Program-made: the position numbers and the translations under genes | The notes under the pieces: model-generated | The model's input: only the letters and a program-made list of their open reading frames with translations | Databases searched by the model: none | Told to the model about the DNA's origin: nothing | In this document: positions 8,335-21,202 of the stretch, one piece after another | Layout of the letters: each line of letters starts with the position of its first letter | How positions within the stretch are numbered: position 1 is the stretch's first letter | DNA from: a virus | Virus record (IMG/VR): IMGVR_UViG_3300033153_001271 | Span: 1-33,934 of that record | Direction: 5' to 3' (one strand) | DNA length: 33,934 nucleotides

Positions 8335-9501
8335 TTATAGTAGAGTAACCGCGCCGACAATAGAATCTAATATATCAACATGCTCTGTTGCTGAGAGAAT
8401 TATTCCAGTTAAAGGGCTTGCATGGTAGATATGAGTGCCTGAATAATCATGGCCTCCCATATTAGCTGTGTAACCAACACCATAAACATTGTAATCATTA
8501 AAATCTCCCGTAGGTGCAAAGGTAGAATCTGATGAGACATTAATATTATGCAGAGGTATTGTGCTTTCCATCGTAATAATATCAGCAAGAGAGTCAGATG
8601 GTTTATCTGCTGTACCATTTACATATACTTCTGTGCCTGCTGTGCCTTCTGCTGTGTCTAGCCAAAACATACCGTTAGCATAACCCACTGTTTGAGATAC
8701 TACAGCGTAACTGGTAAAGATTTGATCCATATACAATGTGGATGTAGTTAATCCACTAGCAGCGTAGAATCTTACTCTTACCTTACCTAGATTAACCCCT
8801 GTGCCTGTGTGTCTTGTTAGTAAAGATCGAGATCTTTGTACGTTTGTAGTAGACCCTTGACCATCAAAAGATCCTATTGCATCCCATTGAGTATTTCCCC
8901 AATCATAGGCATACATCACTAAATCATCATTAGCGGAGTTTATTCGTCCAAAAGTTTCTACTTCTGTAGCTACGCCAGCTCCGCCAACATCAAACTGATA
9001 ATACAACTCCATTGCACCACCAGTATCGGTATGTTGATGAGATGTGCCGTCACGGGTTTCTGTGTCTGACACTGTGCCGCTAGATTGTGTTCCTGTTGTC
9101 AAAGTGTAGCTTTCTGCTTGTACGGATATAGCGGCAGAGCCTACCGCTAATTGGCCAACTTGGTCGGATGTTGCTAAAGCGGTCAAAGTAAACGAACCAA
9201 CAAAACCTGTCGGGTTCTGTGAATCTACTGCTAACGTACAAAACACACCATAAACTCCTGCGCTTGCAAAACCATTTGCGGCTGTTGCTGCTACTGCGAT
9301 TTCGTGCGCTCCTGCGGGGTAATTAGCGTGAGTTAATAAATCAGGTGTACCGCTTAAAACGGGGGCTGCTGATGCTGTTGCACCGCCTAGCCTAACGTCG
9401 AATAAAGGGGTTGCACCATCCCCGCCTGAGCCTGATGTGTCGTTAGCTGCGAAGTATAAGTAAGCCGTGTCTTCTAGGGCTAAGTTTTGATGTCCGCTCA
9501 T
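8335..9501 (-). CDS. Large surface or fibre-like virion protein
   Basis: The 388-aa product is Gly/Ser/Thr-rich and predicted to be beta-rich. N-terminal sequence such as MSGHQNLALEDTAYLYFAAN precedes a jelly-roll-like middle (QHTDTGGAMELYYQFDVGGA, TEVETFGRINSANDDLVMYA). The C-terminus (YSGTHIYHASPLTGIILSAT) looks beta-helical. Its DNA neighbours, in an ATGA-coupled chain with 9498-10340, suggest a multi-subunit virion appendage. No receptor-binding fold can be named from the sequence. A role as adhesin or fibre is inferred from context and composition. Confidence 0.6.
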   Translation of the reverse strand: MSGHQNLALEDTAYLYFAANDTSGSGGDGATPLFDVRLGGATASAAPVLSGTPDLLTHANYPAGAHEIAVAATAANGFASAGVYGVFCTLAVDSQNPTGFVGSFTLTALATSDQVGQLAVGSAAISVQAESYTLTTGTQSSGTVSDTETRDGTSHQHTDTGGAMELYYQFDVGGAGVATEVETFGRINSANDDLVMYAYDWGNTQWDAIGSFDGQGSTTNVQRSRSLLTRHTGTGVNLGKVRVRFYAASGLTTSTLYMDQIFTSYAVVSQTVGYANGMFWLDTAEGTAGTEVYVNGTADKPSDSLADIITMESTIPLHNINVSSDSTFAPTGDFNDYNVYGVGYTANMGGHDYSGTHIYHASPLTGIILSATEHVDILDSIVGAVTLL

Positions 9502-17839: not shown

Positions 17840-18457
17840 TTATTCCTTTAGTCCGCGCTTATCGCCGTGAGCGATTGCAATTAACCCACCTTTATTTGCT
17901 CTCCAAAACTTCAAGGCTGTTTTACCGTCCATTTCAATTATTCTATTATCATCATAGCCTAGCCAATCTTTAATAAGATGTAATTCACAACCTATCTTCA
18001 TATGCTCGTCGAGAATAGTTATATCCCAATTTAAGCCATAGATAAATAAAGGCTGTCTTTCAATGGTTATTTCGTCGGTGTATTTTGTCTCGCGCAAGTC
18101 AGTAGAGCTCAAGTCAGCAGAGCGCAAGTTAGCAGAGCGCAAGTCAGCAGAGCGCAAGTTAGCAGAGCGCAAGTCAGCAGAGCGCAAGTCAGCAGAGCTC
18201 AAGTTAGCAGAGCGCAAGTCAGCAAAGCGCAAGTCAGCAAAGCGCAAGTCAGCAAAGCGCAAGTTAGCAGAGCTCAAGTCAGCAGAGCGCAAGTTAGCAG
18301 AGCGCAAGTTAGTAAAGCGCAAGTCAGCATCTTTTTTAATCGCAATCTTTACCGCCAAACCTAATTTAAAACCATAACTCTCGTTTTCGTATTCAGCATC
18401 TAATTCACATTCAAATTGAACATCGCCCGTAATTCTATTTTTAATCTCGAATTTCAT
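17840..18457 (-). CDS. Pentapeptide-repeat protein, first gene of the leftward early arm
   Basis: I start it at the ATG at 18457 (205 aa, [16 protein letters not shown]...), because ACGAGGGGAAATATT stands directly in front. An upstream in-frame start would lie before the promoter. Residues about 40-120 are A(D/N)LRSA-type pentapeptides ([20 protein letters not shown] ...) that fold into a right-handed four-sided helix. Such proteins can mimic DNA and protect or inhibit gyrase (Qnr, MfpA). The C-terminal part ([20 protein letters not shown]) is a separate domain. First place under an operator-bearing promoter suggests a host-takeover or anti-defence role, which is inference. Confidence 0.8.
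18096..18329. repeat. 15-nt direct-repeat array (15 full units and a partial) within the pentapeptide gene
   Basis: Units such as aagtcagcagagcgc and aagttagcagagcgc start every 15 nt from 18096 to 18306, with a partial one at 18321. They differ mostly at two or three positions (c/t, g/a). Each unit codes one pentapeptide on the minus strand. DNA-level near-identity suggests recent expansion by slippage or recombination and allows the repeat number to vary. Confidence 0.85.
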
Positions 18458-18479
18458 AATATTTCCCCTCGTTTTCAAT

Positions 18480-18511
18480 ACTATTGCATACCGTATCACA
18501 GATAGCAATAC
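18480..18511 (-). promoter_or_regulatory. Leftward early promoter (PL-like) with operator
   Basis: Minus strand: -35 TTGCTA (18508-18503), 17-nt spacer, -10 AATAGT (18485-18480). The operator GTATTGC-TATCT-GTGATAC spans 18511-18493 and overlaps the -35. One base of the right half-site differs from the other two copies. It drives the pentapeptide gene (ATG 18457) and the leftward early genes. Confidence 0.65.
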
Positions 18512-18554
18512 ATATATTCATTATCTTCATTCTTATATATACGAAACAATCAGG

Positions 18555-18854
18555 CAAAAGAAAGCCACAATTAAGTGGCTTGTTATGCGATATTATCCGT
18601 TATGCCTCGGTCTGGATTTCTGCCCACACCTCCCAGAAGATGTTATGTGAACCTTTGCGAGAGGTACGGGCACTGCTATCTGTCTATACTTCGTACATCA
18701 GAATATTAAGGCTCGCTCCCACTGAAAGGAGTTTCGTAGTCTTATACCTAAAGATATAAGTCAAGCCTTATTAATTTGCTCATCTCTTACCAAATCGCTT
18801 AGACCTATTCAAGGTGGACGCTTACGCCCTTTCGGGTGAGCTATATATAAGCGC
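18555..18854 (-). ncRNA. Candidate structured ncRNA of about 300 nt in the control region
   Basis: No open frame of note is seen. An extended -10 (18861-18869) would start RNA near 18854, and the terminator at 18562-18581 would end it. Between them are a bulged hairpin at 18820-18841 (GCTTAC-g-CCC / GGG-TGAGC) and a three-way junction closed by TAAGGCT/AGCCTTA (18707-18713 with 18764-18770). The junction holds two hairpins with 8-nt loops, CTCC/GGAG (18716-18731) and CTTATA/TATAAG (18741-18760). Smaller hairpins lie at 18651-18665 (ACCT/AGGT) and 18611-18637 (TCTGG/CCAGA). I do not recognise the family. Confidence 0.45.
18562..18581 (-). terminator. Intrinsic terminator of the leftward RNA
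   Basis: A 7-bp perfect stem AAGCCAC/GTGGCTT with a 6-nt loop is followed on the minus strand by TCTTTTGCC. The U-rich tail lies on the minus side only, so it ends leftward transcription. It stands upstream of the leftward early promoter (18480-18511), so it insulates the RNA above from the pentapeptide operon. Confidence 0.6.
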
Positions 18855-18860
18855 GCTTCT

Positions 18861-18869
18861 ATTATAGCA
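18861..18869 (-). promoter_or_regulatory. Extended -10 promoter for the leftward RNA
   Basis: The minus strand reads TGCTATAAT (18869-18861), an ideal extended -10 (TGnTATAAT). No -35 is evident 17 nt upstream, which an extended -10 can tolerate. Transcription would start near 18854 and lead into the structured stretch. Confidence 0.5.
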
Positions 18870-19222
18870 CACTGTGTTGTATGAGGGGTTATTCAGGGGG
18901 TTCTATTTATTCCAGACAAGCCCGTCCCCCGTACTTCACCACCATAGGGAGGTTACAAGTAAGTCACCGCTGTATCACATGCTGTCTTTTATCGGAGACC
19001 AGCCGCTTCACTCTTGATCGATCCAATTGGCTCAAGACGCCTTTTAACTTCCTGTGATTCGTTGCATGTTTATGACCGTTCTTGTGACAGAATTGGGTCG
19101 GGTCGGGGTTGGCCCCAGCGTTACTATTATTCTACTTTTATGCGCTACGTTATATGGAACCAGCTACAAACCGTACCAATCTTAGTTTTTATATGTGTTT
19201 AATATAAACGGACGCTTATATA
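18870..19222. other. Non-coding remainder of the control region
   Basis: No convincing gene is present in these 350 bases. A GGGGG/CCCCC pairing (near 18896-18929), a CCAATTGG palindrome framed by CTTGA/TCAAG (19013-19048) and a G-rich tract GGGTCGGGTCGGGG (19095-19108) with a GGGG-TTGG-CCCC hairpin are seen. It may hold the replication origin or more structured RNA. I see no decisive signal. Confidence 0.4.
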
Positions 19223-19252
19223 TTGACGTTGCATTACATCCCTCGCTATAAT
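19223..19252 (+). promoter_or_regulatory. Sigma70 promoter of the rightward small RNA
   Basis: The -35 is TTGACG (19223-19228), the spacer 18 nt and the -10 is TATAAT (19247-19252). It is close to perfect consensus. RNA would begin near 19259. There is no shared palindrome here, so it should be constitutive. The first good ORF downstream is only at 19533, after a hairpin terminator. Confidence 0.7.
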
Positions 19253-19258
19253 GCACAC

Positions 19259-19400
19259 ATATATTTTCTGTTGATGCTTGTAGTTTAACGATTAAGCACC
19301 GTTAGCGCAAGTCAGGAATATGCCTTCGCCCTATGCTGCGAAGTTTCAACCAAAGCATCTGAATCCGCCCTCCGTCCCCTCGGTTTGGCGGATTCTTCAA
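19259..19400 (+). ncRNA. Candidate small RNA of about 140 nt
   Basis: Between the promoter at 19223-19252 and the hairpin at 19361-19395 there is no ORF. The core 19273-19359 is closed by a perfect 7-bp stem (GATGCTT/AAGCATC). Inside are a small hairpin GTTTAA-cga-TTAAGC and a perfect hairpin CTTCGC/GCGAAG (19324-19329 with 19338-19343). The size (87 nt closed by 7 bp) recalls a tRNA, but a T-arm and CCA end cannot be placed, so I call it an unclassified sRNA. Confidence 0.5.
19361..19395 (+). terminator. Hairpin at the end of the small RNA
   Basis: A perfect 9-bp stem GAATCCGCC/GGCGGATTC encloses a 17-nt loop and is followed by TTCAATTCTG. The tail is only mildly U-rich, so termination may be partial. 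It could instead be a processing or stabilising stem. Confidence 0.45.
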
Positions 19401-19430
19401 TTCTGCCTATATATAAAGTATGTAGAATTT

Positions 19431-19458
19431 CTAAAAGTACGTCTAATATCTAAAAGTA
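19431..19458 (+). repeat. Short direct repeats upstream of the rightward early promoter
   Basis: The 9-mer ctaaaagta occurs at 19431-19439 and 19450-19458, 19 nt apart, within AT-rich DNA that also has two ataaagta copies (19412 and 19459 regions). The spacing of about two helical turns would suit a protein binding one face of the DNA. They could be activator sites or weak origin iterons. Confidence 0.3.
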
Positions 19459-19472
19459 TAAAGTATAAATAT

Positions 19473-19504
19473 GTATTGCGTTAAGTAATACGTTGGGCTA
19501 TACT
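19473..19504 (+). promoter_or_regulatory. Rightward early promoter (PR-like) with operator
   Basis: The -35 is TTGCGT (19476-19481), the spacer 17 nt and the -10 is TATACT (19499-19504). The operator GTATTGC-GTTAA-GTAATAC spans 19473-19491 and includes the -35. It drives the rightward arm from 19533. Same design as 16007-16038 and 18480-18511, as expected of sites read by one repressor. Confidence 0.7.
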
Positions 19505-19532
19505 TGGGTTTTAATTAACTGAGGGGAATGTT

Positions 19533-19874
19533 ATGAGTAAGCTGACTAAATTTTACATTGAGTCGTTAGTGGCTAGAAAAACTGATTTAGAGTTATCGGA
19601 TTTTAGATTGATTGAAAAAGAAAACCTTTTAACGGTTACGCCTGAAATGGTCGCAGAATTATTTGGGTTTATGACATCAAAAGAGCAGGCGCAATTTTTT
19701 AATCATGTCGATGAGGTTTGTACGTCATGGCACGGCGGCATAGGTGCGTTATCTATTCAGGCTCAATATATAACCGATGAGGATGATTTAAGTCTTTCAG
19801 GCCGTAGAGTCATGCAGAAAATAGGTGAGTATTCTCACTGGGGTTTAGTCCCACAAGCCTCTAGCTATGAATAA
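19533..19874 (+). CDS. First rightward early protein, unknown
   Basis: The 113-aa protein MSKLTKFYIESLVARKTDLE... starts at an ATG after CTGAGGGGAATGTT. No DNA-binding motif is evident. The sequence has a conserved-looking core with TSKEQAQFFNHVDEVCTSWH and GIGALSIQAQYITDEDD. It is the first gene from the rightward promoter, so it acts very early. The function is unknown. Confidence 0.6.
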   Translation: MSKLTKFYIESLVARKTDLELSDFRLIEKENLLTVTPEMVAELFGFMTSKEQAQFFNHVDEVCTSWHGGIGALSIQAQYITDEDDLSLSGRRVMQKIGEYSHWGLVPQASSYE

Positions 19875-21086: not shown

Positions 21087-21202
21087 GATCTCCGTGGTTT
21101 GTTACAATTAATTTGCGTCTAGACTTAGCGGTCGAAAGGAGGGATTCGTTACCCCTCTGGCGCAAATTCAGTAACGATAATTCTTAAACGGAGAATTGCA
21201 TC

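Follow-up and report, generated by a model that had tools for sequence, protein, structure and literature searches.

What does a gene-free stretch in the middle of a phage genome encode, and what might its product do? We analysed a viral DNA record 33,934 bases long (the window), in which end repeats were not found and which carries phage genes for a portal, a large terminase, an ERF annealing protein, a DnaD-like replication protein and a YqaJ exonuclease. Leftward and rightward genes diverge at about 18.5-19.5 kb, where the sign of the GC skew switches and about 1 kb has no plausible gene. The original prediction had described this region as a gene-free control region, which agrees with our gene map, and had placed in it an unrecognised, leftward structured RNA gene. 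This RNA, here called RNA-A, is flanked by rightward replication genes (DnaD-like) on one side and by a leftward operon with ERF and YqaJ on the other. The features of the region are listed in Table 1.

To describe RNA-A in the window, we searched for promoter and terminator elements and folded the RNA and its parts. The extended -10 element, the further hairpins and the terminator with its T-rich tail had all been predicted, and all were present, the hairpins including a long one. Transcription is expected to start near 18854. A good -35 element was not found upstream, and the sigma-70 scan omitted the 18861-18869 site. The three-way junction was also found, with a closing helix at 18763-18769/18708-18714 and hairpins at 18741-18760 and 18716-18731, and the minimum-energy and centroid folds of this segment of about 80 nt agreed. 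However, the two 8-nt hairpin loops ascribed to it were not: one loop has 4 nt (UUUA), and the size of the other depends on its stem, 8 nt if the stem has 4 bp and 6 nt if it has 5 bp. The 5' module was not significant against shuffles (z -0.9), had no Rfam match and could not be aligned to relatives.

Table 1. Features in and around the gene-free region of the window
Feature	Position	Strand	Basis
RNA-A, non-coding, about 300 nt	18553-18860	-	Better fold than shuffles; RNA genes at the corresponding site of relatives G001 and G003
Extended -10 of RNA-A, TGCTATAAT	18861-18869	-	Read directly from the sequence
5' module of RNA-A: junction with GCUCA/UGAGC closing, hairpins 18816-18829 and 18803-18815	18778-18841	-	Centroid fold
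Central three-way-junction module of RNA-A	18698-18777	-	Common to G001; 26-nt identical block at 18709-18734
Long hairpin of RNA-A	18621-18672	-	Folding; unalignable to relatives
Terminator-like hairpin of RNA-A, T-rich tail reaching about 18553	18562-18581	-	Terminator search
Conserved promoter-like block (TGTATTGC...) ahead of the leftward operon, past the RNA-A terminator	18462-18513	-	77% identity to L005 (G001)
RNA-B, second likely RNA gene	19223-19394	+	TTGACG-18-TATAAT promoter, hairpin, relatives

RNA-A folded better than dinucleotide-shuffled sequences (z -3.4, with 0 of 100 shuffles equal; z -2.6 with 60 shuffles). However, 120-nt scan windows across it were just mildly below shuffles (z about -0.5 to -2.0), so folding energy alone is insufficient for the case. 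The conserved block past its terminator is probably the promoter of the leftward operon.

The original prediction had reported no open frame, and we likewise found no convincing gene over RNA-A. The longest overlapping frame has 91 codons, starts with TTG and lies on the opposite strand. When the small frames of RNA-A were compared with relative phages, the best E values were 5e-5 and 0.003, both on the conserved RNA block. A coding role was rejected: no frame was conserved, and the longest alignable conserved block showed 1 difference in about 37 positions. As 1 change in about 37 would be unlike coding DNA at such divergence, we judged RNA-A to be non-coding.

We searched for related phages through the ERF protein. 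The first relative (G001, ERF 54% identical to that of the window) carries an RNA gene of the same orientation at the corresponding position, with a start (TATAATAGAA) identical to that of the window, a TTTACA-16-TATAAT promoter and a terminator hairpin (L005:8687-8708) similar to that of the window. The central junction showed 80% identity over 80 nt between the window and G001. Its 26-nt identical block is the second longest exact block between the two records, after one of 29 nt inside a protein gene, so the central RNA block is conserved to much the same degree as the best conserved genes of the pair. It is not the best conserved overall, because seven other window/G001 segments score higher. 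Drift as neutral DNA, which had been named as an outcome that would count against the RNA, was therefore not seen, the central module being among the best conserved DNA common to the two phages. A long hairpin after the junction was also seen by eye in G001, and alignment support for it was not found.

In the second relative (G003, locus L009, ERF 56% identical), the RNA gene carries GCGCTATAATA and ends in a terminator. Two of its blocks recur in G001, one of 26 nt and a 3' module of 86 nt. This 3' module is absent in the window, and BLAST found no common block between the RNAs of the window and G003. The element GCTATAATA also lies upstream of the RNA genes in both relatives. Judged by these blocks, the three RNAs are mosaics, with the central module common to the window and G001, and the 26-nt block and 3' module common to G001 and G003. 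This pattern supports the view that RNA-A modules are kept or replaced independently among phages.

Covariation, proposed with the original prediction as a check, was found in part. In a hand alignment of junction hairpin 1, which compares two sequences (window and G001), two pairs were changed on both sides, one pair was broken in G001 and one was present in G001 only. In the 3' module of G001 and G003, 5 of 23 pairs were changed on both sides and 46/46 cells paired, with the structure drawn from the same two rows used for its test. Column shuffles reached the observed pairing in 16 of 500 trials with these two rows, and slid versions dropped to 26-44% paired. A pseudoknot between the hairpin loop of this module and the strand after the hairpin showed compensation in 4 of its 5 pairs. 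The compensated pairs are few, yet their counts point one way.

RNA-B, the divergent neighbour of RNA-A, had no Rfam match. Its CUUCG/CGAAG hairpin pairs 19324-19328 with 19339-19343, and the loop at 19334-19337 can pair with 19354-19357. Both pairings were kept in G001 and G003 through compensating changes. For the pseudoknot-like pairing, 4 of 9 pairs were doubly changed across the three phages, a result reached by 13 of 500 shuffles.

Several other elements were observed around the two RNAs. About 270 bp between them (window 18870-19140) have no gene and no match in relatives. Copies of a CTTATATATA motif, possibly operators, lie at 18841-18857 (the start of RNA-A), at 19209-19224 (before the RNA-B promoter) and at 18530-18545 (before the leftward operon). 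The leftward operon begins with a gene for a pentapeptide-repeat protein, encoded by tandem 20-nt-like repeats at window 18090-18330 on the minus strand, and G001 has a different gene at this position. An int-alpA RNA (RF02996) at window 21112-21177 on the plus strand scored 39.7 bits, which exceeds the gathering score of that family. In G001, a tRNA-Pro gene adjoins RNA-B, and the DNA from RNA-B to RNA-A (L005:6800-8113) holds two small genes, putative GIY-YIG and HNH endonucleases judged by eye, together with gene-free DNA. A 55-nt block near RNA-B, identical in opposite orientation between L005:6698-6752 and L009:1-55, starts at the extreme end of the G003 contig, and no longer exact block was found between locus L009 and the G001 record.

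Further searches left RNA-A in three phages (the window, G001 and G003). Among 50 ERF loci, RNA-A and RNA-B were found in two, G001 and G003, within the flanking DNA covered. Searches through the DnaD-like protein gave no relative the first time and G001 alone the second, and 25 loci with relatives of a conserved 102-aa protein gave no new RNA beyond that of G001. RNA-A was not found in annotated phage and plasmid records, where stray matches covered 5-8% of the query and one of them was the terminator hairpin. Two pattern scans of viral contigs with window-like patterns were empty. These do not imply absence, since one of them missed the G001 record despite the pattern being present in it. 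Another viral-contig scan matched G001 and G003 alone. Of the genome pattern scans, one was empty and one gave four matches that we judged to be chance. Models R1 and R2, run over 56 and 25 sources, recovered nothing beyond their own input sequences (in overlapping loci) and, for R2, chance-level matches. Phage RNA genes are easily overlooked because annotation targets proteins.

We then compared RNA-A with known RNA families. No fitting Rfam family was found for the window RNA at E up to 10 (18440-19540 and 18760-18860), which bears out its description as unrecognised. Group I intron, RNase P RNA and hammerhead gave no match in the same two segments at the same threshold, as the original prediction had also reported, and no split gene was seen that would suit a group I intron. 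ARAGORN and Rfam gave no tRNA or tmRNA match for the window RNA, and none of the Rfam CRISPR models matched it at the gathering score.

In contrast to the window RNA, the first module of G001 (8335-8397) resembled DUF3800-IX RNA (RF02968) over the full model length, with 32 bits and E 1.1e-6 (record), a score below the curated cut-off of 36.8 bits, so the module is not filed as a member of the family. The window and G003 gave no match to RF02968 at E up to 10. Over 18 phage records, one record besides G001 had matches at E up to 10, both of chance level (E 0.24, 2). RF02968 was present in 2 of 398 Pseudomonadota genomes. One of the bacterial copies adjoins a DUF3800 gene (Pfam E 2e-18), and the other occupies an intergenic region bordered by an Abi_2 gene (E 1e-8). 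When the G001 module was aligned with these two copies, GAA, CACCG and ATGGTGT were invariant. The copy by the Abi_2 gene is L068:1501-1568, and a DUF3800 gene is found on another contig of that genome.

Neither protein was matched in the phages: DUF3800 (PF12686) in 0 of 5 phage records, G001 included, and Abi_2 (PF07751) in 0 of 3 (window, G001 and G003), all records that may be fragments. G001 therefore appears to possess the RNA module but not the protein. The central module of the window had no match in the 398 bacterial genomes under strict filters. Sequence profiles over 60 DUF3800/Abi_2 loci gave a best E of 4.7 for the central module and of 1 for the 3' module. A joint 5'-module alignment of the window, G001, G003 and the two host DUF3800-IX RNAs was also tried, and gave no convincing common pattern for the window or G003.

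That RNA-A is a real RNA gene is well supported by its sequence: it has its own -10 and terminator, and two relatives have an RNA gene at the corresponding site. The leftward structured RNA gene of the original prediction is upheld to this extent, and the roles suggested with it (immunity, replication priming or host functions) stand as proposals. That the region is intergenic DNA without an RNA gene, in which hairpins arose by chance beside a terminator, is very improbable. The scan windows only mildly better than shuffles and the unalignable 5' module and long hairpin would fit such DNA, but the 26-nt identical block, the matching position, the -10 with the terminator and the compensatory changes would not. 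A replication RNA, whether a primer or an RNA associated with a phage origin in the control region, also seems improbable. The GC skew changes sign here and a DnaD-like replication gene lies on the divergent side in both the window and G001. However, a skew change is also expected from divergent genes, the repeats found were all short, and G003 has RNA-A and RNA-B yet no match to the DnaD-like gene. Nor would a primer need to end in a terminator or to have exchangeable modules.

Chief among the rivals is that RNA-A acts in cis, as a leader or antiterminator: it would form the 5' untranslated part of the leftward early operon and work by antitermination past its own terminator or by attenuation. 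RNA-A does lie just before this operon, in the same direction, in the window and both relatives, it ends in a terminator, and its conserved structures would suit contact with RNA polymerase. Against this speaks the separate promoter-like block between terminator and operon, and some 300-430 nt of several swapped modules would exceed what such an element needs. The DUF3800-IX-like module of G001 would also be left unaccounted for, and on balance we consider the leader rather unlikely. The same module is unexplained if RNA-A is a trans regulatory RNA of the phage itself, antisense or protein-binding, that serves early genes or the lysis-lysogeny choice with no link to defence. Such an RNA would fit the divergent control region and the nearby divergent RNA-B of the window and G001, but no long complementarity was found within the 1.1 kb region save for terminal arms of 10 to 20 nt. 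We regard this role as unlikely.

Our preferred reading, held tentatively, is that RNA-A is a trans-acting phage RNA built of exchangeable modules that may serve as decoys for host RNA-binding defence proteins. RNA-A would be made leftward from its own promoter, ended by its own terminator, and would act in trans early in infection. Its decoy domains would follow one another along the molecule, and each would mimic a host ncRNA bound by an RNA-binding protein of the host (such as a DUF3800 or Abi_2 protein) that is normally held by its own RNA. Each decoy domain would keep the host protein in a harmless, RNA-bound state, and modules would be exchanged as hosts and defences change. The 5' module of the window would, we infer, be the functional counterpart of the DUF3800-IX-like module of G001.

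The decoy role is suggested by the -10 and terminator of the window and the strong promoter and terminator of G001, by the mosaic modules and compensatory changes, by the DUF3800-IX-like module of G001 together with the bacterial copies beside DUF3800 and Abi_2, and by the lack of a match to either protein in the phage records searched. By analogy, RCd22 (PMC12373285), pseudo-ToxI (PMC3475682) and the Racrs (PMC10651486), as these reports describe them, serve as precedents. On the other hand, the G001 module scores under the cut-off, the window modules have no host RNA match, and the RNA is found in only three phages. A more specific and doubtful version is a polyvalent counter-defence RNA, one transcript with interchangeable domains that mimic different host RNAs controlling RNA-binding toxins or nucleases, the targets being DUF3800, Abi_2 and partners yet to be found. 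If this version is true, the orphan modules (the central junction and the 3' pseudoknot) could be used as probes for undiscovered RNA-controlled defence systems. The work also suggests that one phage transcript may counter several RNA-controlled proteins. The orphan DUF3800-type module of the relative, with the conserved modular phage RNA, offers a testable handle on the role of DUF3800-associated RNA.

Among known phage RNAs, the put RNAs of HK022 are short, cis-acting and structured, lie just after the early promoter and bring about antitermination. RNA-A differs from these in being an independent gene that ends in a terminator of its own and is followed by a further promoter-like block. Imitation of host defence RNAs by phage RNAs is already known, and RNA-A is a phage RNA family for which we found no name. 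The literature searched, which included few subscription papers, held no report on phage copies of DUF3800-type RNA or on multi-module decoy RNAs. Racrs are described as solitary phage RNAs that imitate a host defence RNA, namely CRISPR repeats (PMC10651486). RNA-A is similar as a solitary phage RNA, and it was compared with CRISPR repeats through the Rfam models. The pseudo-ToxI of phage PhiTE is a phage ncRNA proposed to imitate a host antitoxin RNA (PMC3475682). It consists of repeats of one antitoxin sequence and its function is shown, whereas RNA-A joins different modules in one RNA and has a proposed function.

DUF3800 RNAs, putative ncRNAs, are described as associated with DUF3800 genes, whose protein has an RNase H-like fold by prediction (PMC10910872). 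The centroid fold of the 5' module of the window has a junction comparable to that of DUF3800-IX RNA. However, the phage RNAs are longer and multi-module, and a DUF3800 gene was not found in the phage records. In Clostridioides difficile, an Abi_2 toxin is reported to be neutralised by its ncRNA in cis and in trans (PMC12373285). This AbiF-associated RNA, RCd22, differs from RNA-A in that its gene adjoins that of its toxin, and its motif (RF03085) is not listed for the window RNA. In the same report, RCd22 has its own promoter and terminator, carries two copies of a structured motif and acts in trans on the Abi_2 protein, an arrangement that the decoy reading would assign in similar form to RNA-A.
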